A DNA stretch of 64,000 nucleotides from Propioniciclava sp. MC1595. GTDB taxonomy: Bacteria; Actinomycetota; Actinomycetes; Propionibacteriales; Propionibacteriaceae. Of the stretch, positions 10,186 to 15,070 are shown in pieces (positions within the stretch are counted from its first letter, which is position 1; each line of letters starts with the position of its first letter). Both the position numbers and the translations under genes were made by a program. The notes beneath the pieces are model-generated. The model had not been told where the DNA came from, did not search any database, and saw only the letters and a list, made by a program, of their open reading frames with translations. Location: positions 2,356,001-2,420,000 of the forward strand of contig NZ_CP071870.1 of assembly GCF_017569205.1 (NCBI RefSeq), given 5' to 3'.

Positions 10186-10198
10186 TTGAGGAGGGGTG

Positions 10199-10654
10199 AT
10201 GGGACCGACCAACCGTCAGTCCGTGTTCGCCGGGGTGCTGTTGCTGGCCAACCGCATGCAGACCACCTTCGACGGCGAGCTGCCCGACCTGACCCTGAAG
10301 CAGTGGCTGGCACTGACGGTGATCGCGCACCTGCCACAGCCGGTGGCGTCCACCGCGGTGGTCGCGGACGCCCTGGGCACGACCCATCAGAACGTCAGCA
10401 AGCTGGTCGCGGCGCTGGCGTCCGCCGGGTTCGTGGAGCTCACCCCCTCCCCCGACGACCGGCGCGCACGCCGCATCGCCCTGACGGCGTCCGCGCATGC
10501 CTACTTCGCCGCGCACGCCGGCCAGGGCGAGCAGGTGCTCGACCGGCTGTTCGCCGGCACCACGGACGCCGACGTGGCCGCCTGCCTGCGCGTGCTCGAC
10601 ACGATGGCACGCCAGCTCACCGGCGAGACCCTGATGCCGAAGGAGGACCTGTGA
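10199..10654 (+). CDS. MarR-family transcriptional regulator
   Basis: 151-residue winged-helix regulator: LKQWLALTVIAHL, recognition region GTTHQNVSKLVAAL, and wing FVELTPSPDDRRARRIALT with the usual DxRxxR motif. It probably dimerises on the 18-bp palindrome just upstream. GAGGAGGGG ends 2-3 nt before the ATG at 10199, which is tight; GTG 10196 is a possible alternative start. Its stop shares one base with the next gene's ATG (TGATG), so regulator and exported protein form one operon. The ligand is not evident. Confidence 0.9.
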   Translation: MGPTNRQSVFAGVLLLANRMQTTFDGELPDLTLKQWLALTVIAHLPQPVASTAVVADALGTTHQNVSKLVAALASAGFVELTPSPDDRRARRIALTASAHAYFAAHAGQGEQVLDRLFAGTTDADVAACLRVLDTMARQLTGETLMPKEDL

Positions 10655-11649
10655 TGAAGCTCTCGACGCTGCTGAAGCGCTCCGTGGCGGTGCTGGGCGG
10701 CGGCTGCCTGCTGCTGGTCGGCTGGGCCGGCCTCGAGCTGGTGCGGCCACTGCCCGACGACCACCTCGACCCGGCGACCTACCAGCGCACCGCCACCGGG
10801 ACGCGCGCGGTCGTGGTGCCGTTGACGATCCGGGTGGCCCCGGTGACGAGCCTCGCGCTCCAGAACTCCGACCTCGAGGCCACCCTCGAGCGGGACGAAC
10901 GCGGGAACATCCACATCGTGTTCGCGGTCACGGACACGTCCGGGCGGCGAATCGAGGGCGCCTTCCACGAGAACAGCCCCCTGCCGAGCCTGCCCACCCA
11001 GCTGCTGGCCCCGGTGGGGGCGTCCGCCCGGACACCGGTGATGTTCCCGCACTTCGTGCTGCACGACTTCGACTTCGTGCGGCTGGGCGGCCGCATGGAG
11101 GTCACGGTGGACGGTCACCCGCTCCAGTTGGGGGGAATCCCGGTTCCGCTGGTGGCCCAAGGACAGCCCCGGAGCTTCGTGAAGTTCGTGCCCGAGACCG
11201 ACATCCTGGAGGTCTTCCCGGCCGACGTCACGGAGCTGCGGCACGCGATGACGGACGCCGATCGCGACACCGTGACCGAGGGCGAGGTCACCCACCTGTT
11301 CGCCGGGGACGCTCTGGAGCGGATCCGCGTCCGCACCACAGAGGTCGTGTTCGACCCGCCGCTGGACCTGCGTGCTCGCGGCGAGGGTGACTGGTCGATT
11401 CGGACAGAGGGCCACGGCGGTGGCGTGCAGGGTCGCTACGTGGTGTCGGACGCCGACGCCCAGGCGCGGCTGCAGCTGCGGATCACACGGGCGGTCCTCC
11501 CCCACCAGCGCGACGTGCTGTACCGGCTGTTCGTCAACGAGAAGTCGTTCTTCGGGACGTGGCCCCTCGCCTACTGCTACGACGGAACCTTCGACCTGGA
11601 TGCCGGGACCGTGTCGGCCCGGTGGTTCAACGACGCACCCTTGGGGTGA
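10654..11649 (+). CDS. Membrane-anchored or exported protein, unknown function
   Basis: 331 residues with one N-terminal hydrophobic segment (SVAVLGGGCLLLVGWAG) and no lipobox, so it is either a cleaved Sec substrate or a signal-anchored protein. The rest is a soluble, beta-rich looking domain with charged runs and only one other Cys (AYCYDG). I recognise no domain. Co-transcription with the MarR regulator suggests that it answers the same signal. Ends 24 nt before a strong hairpin. Confidence 0.7.
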   Translation: MKLSTLLKRSVAVLGGGCLLLVGWAGLELVRPLPDDHLDPATYQRTATGTRAVVVPLTIRVAPVTSLALQNSDLEATLERDERGNIHIVFAVTDTSGRRIEGAFHENSPLPSLPTQLLAPVGASARTPVMFPHFVLHDFDFVRLGGRMEVTVDGHPLQLGGIPVPLVAQGQPRSFVKFVPETDILEVFPADVTELRHAMTDADRDTVTEGEVTHLFAGDALERIRVRTTEVVFDPPLDLRARGEGDWSIRTEGHGGGVQGRYVVSDADAQARLQLRITRAVLPHQRDVLYRLFVNEKSFFGTWPLAYCYDGTFDLDAGTVSARWFNDAPLG

Positions 11650-11673
11650 GATCAGCGCCGCCCCCCTCATGGC

Positions 11674-11706
11674 AGAAGGCCCGGAGAGGAGCTCTCCGGG
11701 CCTTCT
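11674..11706. terminator. Bidirectional terminator between MarR operon and tRNA-Lys
   Basis: Perfect 14-bp stem AGAAGGCCCGGAGA/TCTCCGGGCCTTCT with loop GGAGC. It can serve the MarR operon on the plus strand and tRNA-Lys on the minus strand, whose 3' end is 4 nt away. Confidence 0.85.
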
Positions 11707-11709
11707 GGT

Positions 11710-11785
<76 letters not shown>

Positions 11786-11900
11786 GCGCGATGAAGAACG
11801 TTACACCCGCGGATACCTCATGCAAAATCGAGGTGACGCAACCGATGACAACAAGCCGCTGGGCTGGGGCCCCCGCTCTACGGTGGGCGGGGCGGGCGCT

Positions 11901-12020
11901 CCGTGGCGGGTTCTGGCAGGTGGGCCGACCACTTCGTGCCACCGGACGCCCGCAGCCGCCTCCCGTGGCCGTTCCATGTCACGGTGTGGTCGGTAGTCCG
12001 ACCACTTTCTGCCACGGATC
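11901..12020 (+). repeat. 120-bp inverted repeat, left copy
   Basis: It matches the reverse complement of 12972-13091 without gaps, with 16 mismatches by eye (about 87% identity). Each copy contains two direct 32-nt subrepeats of the form GTGGCA..AA.TGGTCGG, here on the minus strand, separated by a conserved middle including CCATG.AACGGCCACGGG in some form. Its inner end touches the stop codon of the nuclease-like gene. Confidence 0.85.
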
Positions 12021-12939
12021 AGAGCGTGCAGAGGGGACAGCGACTCAGGTGCCCGTCCCAACCCCGGGCCCGCAACGCCCTCGCCACCTGATCGGCCACC
12101 TTGCAGGGACGCGTCCGCACATCGACGGTGCCGTAGCGCAGCGTCCCGATCCCCACGATGACGTGCTCGTTGTCCTTCTCGAGGTCGCGCAGCACACGCC
12201 GCAGGTGGTGGCGTCCGTCTAGTTCGACGGCAAGCCTCCAGCGCTCGTACCGGACGTCGTGGCGCCACGGCCCCACCGTCGACACCTGGCGCAGGCCGAC
12301 CGGTAGCCCGTGGGCCCGCTCGACGTCACGCCGGTAGACCCACTCGAGCGTGCTCTCGATGCCGCCGTAGTCGCGCAGCACGTCGCGGACCATCTGCGCA
12401 TTCGGCAGGCGGGGTCGCTCCTGGCTGCGGGTGGCGACGTCGACCACGCGGACGAGCCCCTCCCGGACGGTGTCGGCCAGAACCCCCACCCAGCGCTCGA
12501 GGGTGCAGTCGGCGGCGATGTCGAGCAGGGCGTCGTCCAGACGAATCGCCGGGAGTGAACCGCGGGCGTCCCCGAGGCGTCCGCGGATGTCGCGGGAGAA
12601 CACCCAGCCGGGCCGGTTCGCCGGCCGCCGGTCCGGGGGCGTCCACGTCGTGACGAGGCGTGGCACGGGCACCACCTGGGCGCGGGCCAGGGCGGCCCAC
12701 CCGCCGAGTGCGGCCCCGGGGCCGCCGAGGAGGACGCCCGCCCACAGGCGGCCCTGGTCGGTGATGGACGGGGCTGGCACGATGATTCCCCTGGCTGGCT
12801 GGATCCACGCGCCGGTGCCCAACAGGCGACGCATCGGCGTCCGGCCGATCTCGGCCAGCACCTGGGCGCGGCTCAGGACGCCGCCCTGCCGGGATGCGCG
12901 TCGCAGGAGGGTCTCGGGGACCTCAGTTCGCTCGAACAC
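12019..12939 (-). CDS. AbiEi-like helix-turn-helix plus DUF559 nuclease-like protein
   Basis: 306 residues. The N-terminus (LLRRASRQGGVLSRAQVLAEI, then GAWIQPARGIIV) is like the winged-helix antitoxin domain of AbiEi proteins. The C-terminal third (from about 215) is a DUF559/Vsr-like PD-(D/E)xK-type domain: YERWRLAVELDGRHH, RDLEKDNEHVIVG, LRYGTVDVRTRPCKVADQV. Such fusions are common, multi-copy and uncharacterised in Actinomycetota; a role in defence or toxin control is inferred from domain kinship only. The GTG start at 12939 has TAAGGT 6 nt upstream. The gene fills the space between two inverted 120-bp repeats, which suggests a mobile cassette. Confidence 0.8.
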   Translation of the reverse strand: MFERTEVPETLLRRASRQGGVLSRAQVLAEIGRTPMRRLLGTGAWIQPARGIIVPAPSITDQGRLWAGVLLGGPGAALGGWAALARAQVVPVPRLVTTWTPPDRRPANRPGWVFSRDIRGRLGDARGSLPAIRLDDALLDIAADCTLERWVGVLADTVREGLVRVVDVATRSQERPRLPNAQMVRDVLRDYGGIESTLEWVYRRDVERAHGLPVGLRQVSTVGPWRHDVRYERWRLAVELDGRHHLRRVLRDLEKDNEHVIVGIGTLRYGTVDVRTRPCKVADQVARALRARGWDGHLSRCPLCTL

Positions 12940-12945
12940 GCCGAT

Positions 12946-12951
12946 ACCTTA
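12946..12951 (-). promoter_or_regulatory. Leaderless -10 box (AbiEi/DUF559 gene)
   Basis: On the minus strand TAAGGT-ATCGGC-GTG; the start codon is 6 nt after the box. The right inverted repeat begins 20 bp further upstream, so the repeat could supply the -35 region. Confidence 0.55.
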
Positions 12952-12971
12952 GGAACGCCTGATCACCCGAA

Positions 12972-13091
12972 GATCCGTGGCACGAAGTGGTCGGACTACC
13001 GGCCACAACGTGCCATGGAACGGCCACGGGCGGCGGCTGAAGCCGTCCAGTGGCAGGAACTGGTCGGACTACCGGCCAGAACCCGCCACCG
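12972..13091 (-). repeat. 120-bp inverted repeat, right copy
   Basis: Partner of 11901-12020 in opposite orientation. Subrepeats on the plus strand lie at 12977-13008 and 13050-13081 (32 nt each, three differences), 73 nt apart. The copy lies upstream of the AbiEi/DUF559 gene and 9 bp before the next hairpin. Confidence 0.85.
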
Positions 13092-13099
13092 AACACAGC

Positions 13100-13129
13100 G
13101 GTGCCCCGGAGCCACGGCTCCGGGGCACC
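13100..13129. terminator. Terminator of the sugar ABC operon
   Basis: Perfect 13-bp stem GGTGCCCCGGAGC/GCTCCGGGGCACC with loop CACG, 13 nt beyond the stop of the minus-strand permease gene. It also shields the repeat-flanked cassette from read-through. Confidence 0.85.
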
Positions 13130-13142
13130 ACTGGACGAGGGG

Positions 13143-14093
13143 TCAGCCCTTGACGCCACCGGCCAGCATGCCGCGCACGAAGAAGCGCTGCAGTGACAGG
13201 AACACGATCAGCGGCACGATCATGGCCACGAACGCGCCCGCGGAGAGCACGTGCCAGGCCTGGCCACGGCTACCCACCATCTCGGCGATCATCACCGTGA
13301 TCGGGCGGTAGTCCGAGCTGGCGAACGTGAGGCCGACCAGCAGGTCGTTCCAGACCCACAGGAACTGGAAGATGCCGAACGAAGCGATCGCGGGGACCAG
13401 CAGGGGCATGAGCACCTGGAAGAACACGCGCACGTGGCCGGCACCGTCGACGCGGGCCGCCTCGATCAGGGACGCCGGGATCTCCCGCATGAAGTTGTGC
13501 AGCAGGAAGATCGCCAGCGGCAGGCCGAAGATGGTGTGCGACAGCCACACCGTCCAGTAGGTGCCGACGAGCCCGAACTGCACGTACTGAGTGAGCAGCG
13601 GGATCAGCGTCACCTGGATCGGCACGATCTGCAGCGCGAACACGGCCACGAAGAGCCAGTCGCGCCCCTTGAAGTCGATCCACGCGAACGCGTAGGCCGC
13701 CAGCAGGGCCAGGATGATCGGGATGATCACCGAGGGCAGGGTGATGACGATCGTGTTGACGAACGGCTGCACCAGGTCGCCCGAGCCGGTCAGGACGGCC
13801 TCGTAGTTGGCCAGGCTGAACTCGGGGTTGGTGAAGACCGTCCACCACCCGGTGCGCCGGATGTCGGCGGCGGGGCGGAACGACGTGACCAGCAGGCCGG
13901 CCGTGGGGATCGTCCACACGATCGCGATCACGATCGCGATGATGGACGCCGCGGGCGAGCTCAGCCGGTTCTTGGCGTCGACCGCGCGCTGCTCGGCGCG
14001 GGTCAGCTTGCGCGTCGGACCGTGGGCGGCCGAACGGCTCTCGGTCGCGGCGGCCGGCACGGAGGCCGGTGCCGGCGGATTCGACTGGGTCAT
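13143..14093 (-). CDS. Sugar ABC transporter permease, AglG/MalG-like
   Basis: 316-residue inner-membrane permease of the carbohydrate CUT1 class. A polar N-terminal tail of about 45 residues precedes six hydrophobic segments (first SIIAIVIAIVWTIPTAGLLV). The EAA loop is IPASLIEAARVDGAGHVRVFFQVLMPL, where the transporter ATPase docks. Together with the next permease and the binding protein it resembles the alpha-glucoside system AglEFG. Start at ATG 14093, whose ATGA overlaps the upstream gene's stop. No ATPase gene is nearby, so a shared MsmK-type ATPase is likely. Confidence 0.88.
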   Translation of the reverse strand: MTQSNPPAPASVPAAATESRSAAHGPTRKLTRAEQRAVDAKNRLSSPAASIIAIVIAIVWTIPTAGLLVTSFRPAADIRRTGWWTVFTNPEFSLANYEAVLTGSGDLVQPFVNTIVITLPSVIIPIILALLAAYAFAWIDFKGRDWLFVAVFALQIVPIQVTLIPLLTQYVQFGLVGTYWTVWLSHTIFGLPLAIFLLHNFMREIPASLIEAARVDGAGHVRVFFQVLMPLLVPAIASFGIFQFLWVWNDLLVGLTFASSDYRPITVMIAEMVGSRGQAWHVLSAGAFVAMIVPLIVFLSLQRFFVRGMLAGGVKG

Positions 14094-15070
14094 CGCTCCC
14101 CCTCCGAGATGCGCATCTGGCGCACGTTGTAGACGATCAGGGGCATGACCAGCACGAACAGCAGCACGGCCAGCGCCGCACCGATGCCCTGCGCCTGGCG
14201 GCCGAACGTCTGCGTGTAGAACTCGTTCGCCACGATCGAGGTGTCGAACTGGCCACCGGTCATCGTGCGGACGATGTCGAAGGCCTTCAGCGTCGCCATG
14301 GCGATCGTGGTCAGCACGACGATGATCGCCGAGCGCACGCTGGGCACCGTGATCTGCCAGAACAGACGCATGCCCGTGGCGCCGTCCACGTTGGCGGCCT
14401 CGATCGTCTCGTCGGGGATCGCCTTGATGGCGGCCGACAGCACCGTCATCGCGAAACCGGTCTGGATCCAGACCATGACGATGATGAGGTAGAAGGTGTT
14501 GATCGGGGCGTTCAGCAGGAACTGCTGGGGCTCCAGACCCATCCACACGAGGATCTGGTTGAGCAGACCCGTCTGCGGGACGCCCTTGGCCTTGTACTCG
14601 TAGACGAACTTCCAGATGATCGACGCGCCCACCATGGAGATGGCCATGGGCAGGAAGATCAGGGTCTTGGCGAACTTCTCGAACCGGGTGCGGTCGACGA
14701 GGACGGCGTAGACCAGGCCCAGCGCGGTCGACAGCAGCGGCACCAGCAGCACCCACAGGAAGGTGTTCCGCAACACGGTGAGGAACAGGTCCTGGGTGAA
14801 GATGGTGACGTAGTTCTCGAGCCCGACGAACTCGCTCAGGCTGTTGTTGTACAGCGAGTTGCGGATCGTCATGAACGCCGGAATGAGCAGGCCCATGACG
14901 ATCAGCAGCAGCGCAGGGCCGAGGTACCCGCCGGCCGCGACCCAACGCGGCAGGCTCGGACGATCGACCAGCACCAGCACGGCGGCCATCACCAGCGCGA
15001 ACAGCGCGATGGCGAACAGCATGACGAGGAACTTCTCGATCGTGGTGTCCGGTTGCATCAGCCAGTCCAT
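14090..15070 (-). CDS. Sugar ABC transporter permease, AglF/MalF-like
   Basis: 326 residues with about eight hydrophobic segments. The first, FLVMLFAIALFALVMAAVLV, is an extra N-terminal helix as in MalF. The EAA loop is IPDETIEAANVDGATGMRLFWQITVP. It pairs with the AglG-like permease downstream (4-nt overlap). AGGAAAGGAG lies 5 nt before the ATG. A strong hairpin separates it from the upstream binding-protein gene, which would lower permease expression relative to binding protein. Confidence 0.88.
   Translation of the reverse strand: MDWLMQPDTTIEKFLVMLFAIALFALVMAAVLVLVDRPSLPRWVAAGGYLGPALLLIVMGLLIPAFMTIRNSLYNNSLSEFVGLENYVTIFTQDLFLTVLRNTFLWVLLVPLLSTALGLVYAVLVDRTRFEKFAKTLIFLPMAISMVGASIIWKFVYEYKAKGVPQTGLLNQILVWMGLEPQQFLLNAPINTFYLIIVMVWIQTGFAMTVLSAAIKAIPDETIEAANVDGATGMRLFWQITVPSVRSAIIVVLTTIAMATLKAFDIVRTMTGGQFDTSIVANEFYTQTFGRQAQGIGAALAVLLFVLVMPLIVYNVRQMRISEGER

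Follow-up and report, generated by a model that had tools for sequence, protein, structure and literature searches.

The locus described here lies in a 64,000-nt stretch of the genome of Propioniciclava sp. MC1595 (NZ_CP071870.1, positions 2,356,001 to 2,420,000), referred to as the window, and consists of a single gene enclosed by two inverted arms (Table 1). As an earlier note on this DNA had claimed, the arms are long and similar: each is 121 nt, they align without gaps and they are identical at 105/121 positions (16 mismatches), while the next-best match in the same genome has an E value of 0.03. Two nucleotides of the stop codon fall inside the left arm, which the note describes as ending on that codon, and the right arm lies 32 bp ahead of the GTG start codon (33 in the note). 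The paired 32-nt direct subrepeats described within the arms are indeed paired units, and prove to be imperfect palindromes of about 40–45 nt, two per arm and 73 bp apart. When folded, the right arm forms the two palindrome hairpins and a third hairpin between them. On the two strands of the window, the core pattern of the palindrome is matched exactly four times, each time inside the arms, against an expectation of 0.02. An Rfam search of the region returned nothing but the tRNA above threshold, and a consensus scan of the spacer detected no promoter or leader.

Table 1. Coordinates of the palindrome-flanked unit and adjacent features in the window.
Feature	Position	Strand	Remarks
Hairpin	11673–11707
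tRNA-Lys	11710–11785	-
Left arm	11900–12020	.	Two imperfect palindromes (about 11903–11947 and 11976–12020); inverted relative to right arm
Gene, 306 aa	12019–12939	-	AbiEi-like N-terminal two domains, Vsr/EDxHD-like (DUF559) nuclease domain, C-terminal CPxC
Spacer, 32 bp	12940–12971	-	Start codon to right arm; long enough for a promoter or leader
Right arm	12972–13092	.	Two imperfect palindromes (12977–13021 and 13050–13094, repeat finder)
Separate hairpin, 18-nt arms	13096–13133	.	Possibly the permease terminator

The gene is bordered on one side by the tRNA-Lys, followed by a gene without a Pfam match, and on the other by an ABC permease gene. None of these neighbours matches a toxin family, and no AbiEii gene adjoins. 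The note had also placed the unit beside a tRNA and between two strong terminators; the tRNA is confirmed and both flanking hairpins are strong inverted repeats, but a terminator scan found no T-tailed terminator at the unit. Congeners carry a different hairpin at the place of the one nearest the permease gene, and it may therefore be part of the unit or not. Compared with three congeners (G004, G007 and G008), the segment with the tRNA-Lys and terminator is inverted in the window (10196–11785). Here a MarR gene and a gene without a Pfam match lie between the tRNA segment and the preceding gene, which we take to be cobQ-like, and the palindrome unit adjoins the other edge of the rearranged block.

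The protein matches the Pfam models AbiEi_4 (residues 10–52, 20.8 bits) and DUF559 (residues 220–289, 19.5 bits), both slightly under the gathering cut-offs, and among 30 aligned proteins, itself included, these models match 27 and 13, respectively, at E 0.01. An AlphaFold2 model built from the 30 proteins has a mean pLDDT of 93.1. Foldseek aligned this model with the two-domain AbiEi antitoxin 6y8q (E 3e-6, 194 columns, TM 0.56 by target length, rmsd 5.5) and with the catalytic domain of I-Bth0305I, 3r3p_B (E 0.028, probability 1.00, TM 0.80 by target length, 100 columns), while sequence profiles searched against the PDB gave weak matches, the best being to an endonuclease-like protein (E 0.011). 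Residues E199, E239, D241, H244 and D252 are among those invariant in the nuclease part of all 30 sequences, and may form an active site of the EDxHD/Vsr type. The CPxC at the C-terminus is almost invariant. On the predicted fold, the protein is probably a nuclease that joins an AbiEi-like DNA-binding part to a Vsr/EDxHD-like domain, in agreement with the fusion proposed in the note. The AbiEi model of PADLOC matches 28/30 members, the window protein not among them; NCBIfam matches none of the 30, and Pfam and fold searches gave no transposase family. The ratio dN/dS in five pairs is about 0.11–0.37, so that the protein is under purifying selection.

Homologues are present in 6/13 genomes of the genus (E ≤ 1e-10) and 104/197 genomes of the family (E ≤ 1e-20), the genome of MC1595 being counted in both, and in named relatives across the Actinomycetota (e.g., Nakamurella, Kribbella, Nocardioides, Gordonia and Microlunatus, among the best 80 of 357). 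Of the 32 loci compared first, among them that of the window, 30 had a matched pair, by which is meant that a stretch no more than 400 bp upstream of the gene matches one no more than 400 bp downstream (blastn, E < 1e-4); mismatched flanks gave 29/992. The partial genes L026 and L027 were excluded from this set, and neither had a pair. The best 80 named loci gave 46 pairs (control, 12/500), and two genus loci (L019 and L023) share their palindromes with L166 and L171, two named loci of Propioniciclava, which places the genus with Propioniciclava. A uniform retest added 40 further family loci, picked by hand down the homologue list, and the gene could be placed in each of the 152 loci (32 + 40 + 80). 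Removal of 21 loci whose C-terminal stretch was identical, and of L230, which was short, left 130 unique loci. A matched pair was found in 104/130, comprising 66/72 of the host-family set and 38/58 of the named, wider actinomycete set, and was absent in 26/130. Mismatched flanks gave 21/1000, and ordinary genes of the same long loci 13/178.

The matched pieces tend to be self-complementary, with a median score of 0.35 compared to 0.16 for random flank pieces, and scores of at least 0.4 in 45/104 matched pieces against 3/104 flank pieces. At least nine net stem pairs are formed in 78/104 pieces and fewer in 26/104. The best match between flanking copies is in direct orientation at 74/104 loci, while the window arms are inverted. 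Two loci have unusual arrangements. At L063 (genome G072), four palindrome copies lie within 400 bp of the gene, one upstream and three downstream, in an array-like fashion. At L200, from an Acidimicrobiaceae MAG, the gene is flanked by a 235-bp perfect direct repeat, either a duplication or an assembly artefact.

The genome of MC1595 has four other DUF559-domain genes, of which L017 alone has a pair; L013, L014 and L015 have none within 450 bp. At L015 (near 0.89 Mb), a palindrome at 717–781, ahead of the gene, is accompanied by a 64%-similar stretch at 2620–2749 (E 1.6e-9), about 0.9 kb beyond the gene, and is possibly a weak candidate for a longer unit.

Palindrome similarity rises with protein identity over 64 loci (Mantel r 0.31, reached in 0/999 permutations; 13 duplicates had been removed by hand and one identical pair, L075/L182, remained), the relationship by rank over all pairs being weak (Spearman 0.12). 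Palindromes differ from gene to gene and are alike mainly above about 60% protein identity, with a few exceptions near 40%. Judged from these sequence comparisons, palindrome and protein appear to diverge jointly, in the pattern that fast joint divergence predicts, and common descent contributes as well. The centre of the palindrome is not fully symmetric, and GACTAC/GTAGTC stands at 14/78 centres while the arms around it vary; the control rate is 0.3%. In the alignment of family-1 palindromes (A2; see below), 91.7% of stem cells pair, compared to 90.3% in shuffles (reached in 11/500), and 17 cells are changed on both sides, compared to 10.3 in shuffles (reached in 1/500); pairs changed on both sides show no excess (4 versus 4.3).

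Two palindrome families, together with the window's own palindrome, were searched genome-wide. Family 1, the palindrome of gene L061, was looked for in 30 genomes of the genus to which L061 belongs. Counting the copies that flank the gene and taking the two strands together, it occurs at 10, 14 and 21 places in G149, G137 and G182, respectively, and these three genomes are the ones with the genes L061, L060 and L057, respectively. Of the remaining 27 genomes, 23 have none and four (G125, G141, G157 and G165) have one weak match each, that in G165 adjoining the genome's own homologue. Family 2, the palindrome of L065/L068, is unrelated to family 1 and was searched in five genomes of another genus; G015 has it at 13 places and G038 at 9, these two being single-contig genomes with the family-2 gene, and the three congeners have none. 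Several family-2 sites are common to G015 and G038, so that the copies are not all independent, and since genomes with a common palindrome family are related, shared descent accounts for part of the co-occurrence of gene and palindrome. At the partly orthologous loci L267 and L270 of these two genomes, a common palindrome is present and about 900 bp of extra DNA lies directly beside that of G038. A suggestion that the gene evolves faster than its neighbours was dropped, the gene being 85% identical between G015 and G038, downstream sequence 95% and upstream sequence 76%.

Solo copies were classified for 43 sites (26/39 of family 1 and 17/18 of family 2), with genes taken from a purpose-made gene finder. 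None lies well inside a predicted gene, and four overlap a predicted 3' end by 11–42 nt. For the 41 copies with two neighbours, 21 lie between convergent genes, 16 between tandem genes and 4 between divergent genes; all 92 intergenic gaps longer than 40 bp in the same loci, solo sites included, comprise 24 convergent, 43 tandem and 25 divergent gaps.

The window arm itself behaves differently from these two families. At E < 0.01, the only matches in the 3.43-Mb, single-contig genome are the two arms, followed by fragments of 17–26 nt at E 0.03 or worse (18 bp at E 0.03). The 197 family genomes, with the best four candidates or fewer scored in each, yielded three more partial matches (28–35 nt) that reach E 0.001. 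No full-length copy was detected elsewhere in the genome or among those candidates. A loose search of the genome with the core pattern, allowing up to two mismatches, gave at least 318/321 matches against at least 163/173 for the reversed pattern, about twofold, and was set aside because the exact copies in the window were not among the matches listed. A DNA search of plasmids and phages found no match. At the protein level no plasmid relative was found, and a single partial match came from an unverified phage scaffold (L337, MT835975.1). The latter encodes a distant relative whose gene is possibly enclosed by an inverted pair of 56 nt (79%), and the scaffold may be bacterial.

Comparison of sites between congeners was most informative for L017, a second palindrome-flanked nuclease of MC1595 (near 2.26 Mb; 1319–2596 of that locus) with palindromes of about 85 nt. 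Its gene is of the MTES_1575/DUF559 type, a more distant subfamily than the window gene. In G000 the unit occupies the gap between two convergent genes, and G009 has it there too, at 77% identity. In G004, G007 and G001, the flanks align and are 5, 39 and 41 bp apart, respectively, with no gene and, by eye, no palindrome; in G005, one flank aligns and the other does not. A relative of the gene (70%) is found on a different contig of G007. For this unit of a distant subfamily, the alignments with three congeners suggest gain or loss as a block. A solo site of family 2 (L277) varies in a similar way, the palindrome being intact in G015, decayed by eye in G038, and absent in G072 and in G057, where 15 bp are left. 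At the orthologous site of G085 (L290), the same convergent gap holds another palindrome, a perfect one with arms about 28 bp long, and this palindrome is unlike that of the gene of G085 in L297.

At the window site, the DNA of G004 is 98% identical from 13088 to 15000 and the unit is absent. It is also absent there in G008 and G009, yet both have homologues elsewhere. The site is ill suited to an empty-site comparison: relative to G004, G007 and G008, the tRNA-Lys/terminator segment is inverted and there are two extra genes. The window arms are inverted, as the terminal repeats of an insertion sequence or MITE would be, and the intergenic flanks of the compared sites are too diverged for a target-site duplication or a clean junction to be read. 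A comparison of G149 with G137 was also considered as a clean empty site and rejected, the gap in question having a different hairpin by eye.

The proposal of a non-autonomous mobile cassette is supported as to mobility by the homologues elsewhere in G008 and G009 and the block absence of L017 in three congeners; since the unit encodes a probable nuclease of its own, the term non-autonomous is open to doubt. The note had seen an arm occurring nowhere else, in a unit present at the same locus in all relatives, as speaking against such a cassette: the former is so in the sequences scored, where no other full arm was found, and the latter is not, as congeners lack the unit at this locus. Its alternative of a self-contained defence module gained no support, and no known partner gene lies beside the window gene.

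The explanation we prefer, with a probability of roughly 0.58, is that these 1.2 kb form a selfish unit, in which a single nuclease gene is combined with palindromes of its own, and which is a functional analogue of REP/RAYT elements (REPtrons) with an unrelated enzyme. It draws directly on the architecture, its recurrence, the co-divergence of palindrome and protein, the gene-linked dispersal of two families, the block presence or absence of one related unit, and purifying selection. Binding, cutting, mobilisation and the route of copying can be pictured as follows. The AbiEi-like N-terminal part, probably dimeric, would bind the palindrome arms, and the palindromes would likely serve as protein-binding platforms, one of the roles considered in the note. 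The Vsr/EDxHD-like domain would then cut or nick at or near the asymmetric centre of the palindrome, and repair or strand transfer at the cuts might occasionally move the entire palindrome–gene–palindrome unit. In some lineages, such cuts may lead to the palindrome alone being copied into other intergenic places. Counting against a selfish unit are the lack of dispersed copies of the window arm, the 26/130 relatives without a pair, the 26/104 pieces with fewer than nine net stem pairs, the distant subfamily to which the block-absence case belongs, the shared descent of genomes with a common palindrome family, and copy numbers far below those of REPs, for which more than 100 copies are reported (PMC2817692).

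RAYT genes are described as flanked by inverted REPs and as co-evolving with them, the abundance of the palindromes going with the presence of the cognate gene (PMC2817692). The genomic signature seen here is that of REP/RAYT, because a gene is flanked by palindromes, the two co-evolve, and palindrome abundance is tied to the cognate gene. The likeness, as far as these accounts describe their systems, extends to a single nuclease gene between its own palindromes, co-divergence, dispersal with the cognate gene and an intergenic location (PMC2817692, PMC3733652). The enzyme differs, being an AbiEi–Vsr/EDxHD fusion, whereas RAYTs are HUH tyrosine transposases (IS200/IS605-related TnpA_REP); the copies are fewer, the hosts are Actinomycetota, and flanking copies are mostly direct, unlike the inverted REPs reported for RAYTs. 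By eye, alignments A2 and A3 show no constant tag outside the palindromes, such as GTAG/GTGG at the palindrome foot. An identification as RAYTs was rejected, as the matches are to AbiEi and DUF559/Vsr-like domains and not to an HUH enzyme. CGTC-tagged REPs, for which the transposase is not known, resemble the present families in being dispersed palindromes (PMC3733652), and differ in being known mainly from reports on alphaproteobacteria and in having an unpaired CGTC end.

A regulatory role is an unlikely alternative, in which a DNA-binding protein regulates its own gene, looping over it from the two palindromes as operators, and the dispersed copies form its regulon. In its favour, AbiEi antitoxins are reported to bind their own promoter at inverted repeats (PMC7319586), and 32 bp separate the right arm from the start codon of the window gene. 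Solo copies, however, favour convergent gene ends and are rare in divergent gaps, and such a role leaves unexplained both the block presence or absence and a nuclease domain in which acidic and histidine residues are invariant. At a similarly low probability stands homing, by which a free-standing EDxHD endonuclease would invade pre-existing palindromic sites by cutting and repair, leaving a palindrome on each side. The prevalence of direct orientation among flanking copies (74/104) would fit, as would the likeness to I-Bth0305I, which shares the nuclease fold and is described as a dimer on a target of nearly 60 bp, comparable in length to the palindromes (PMC3943268). The present units differ in their AbiEi-like DNA-binding part and flanking palindromes, and no intron or intein was seen with them. 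Homing would predict palindromes at vacant sites, but the empty L017 sites of G004, G007 and G001 have none by eye, and the solo site L277 is palindrome-free in G057 and G072. A typical homing endonuclease was rejected on the former sites, which concern one unit of a distant subfamily.

Least probable, and by a clear step below the preceding two, is that the palindromes are ordinary terminators or structural hairpins such as surround many genes and that the gene is an orphan AbiE antitoxin. The frequent position of palindromes between convergent genes is what terminators would give, and the PADLOC result, the window protein apart, points to AbiEi, but a sequence match across one gene is not expected of terminators (104/130, against 2% and 7% in the controls), and the window unit has no T-tail. 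The resemblance to type IV toxin–antitoxin systems lies in the N-terminal two-domain fold (6y8q) and in the binding of inverted repeats reported for AbiEi proteins (PMC7319586). The differences are the additional nuclease domain and the position of the gene, which has no AbiEii toxin gene next to it and no neighbour matching a toxin family. An AbiE system proper was rejected, there being no AbiEii nucleotidyltransferase partner at the window.

The selfish-unit explanation has consequences beyond this locus. The enzymes tied to dispersed bacterial palindromes are RAYTs in the accounts consulted, and a search of the open-access literature, which takes in few subscription papers and preprints, found nothing on palindromes of DUF559 or AbiEi nucleases. 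Within the literature searched, this looks like an enzyme type not previously linked to a self-spreading palindrome element. The odds are about even that it represents a second, independently evolved class of palindrome mobilisation, one of Vsr/EDxHD nucleases with an AbiEi-like DNA-binding part and no HUH chemistry, widespread in the Actinomycetota; the protein models used here show just AbiEi or DUF559 domains in these enzymes. There is a real chance that AbiEi–Vsr/EDxHD palindrome units deserve a class of their own. If so, the same genomic signature would have been reached with a different nuclease fold, by an independent origin of this lifestyle, and such units could account for part of the intergenic palindromes in Actinomycetota. 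The hundred or so pairs of enzyme and palindrome provide material for studying how DNA specificity co-evolves, and a gene labelled AbiEi or DUF559 is not necessarily a toxin–antitoxin or defence gene.
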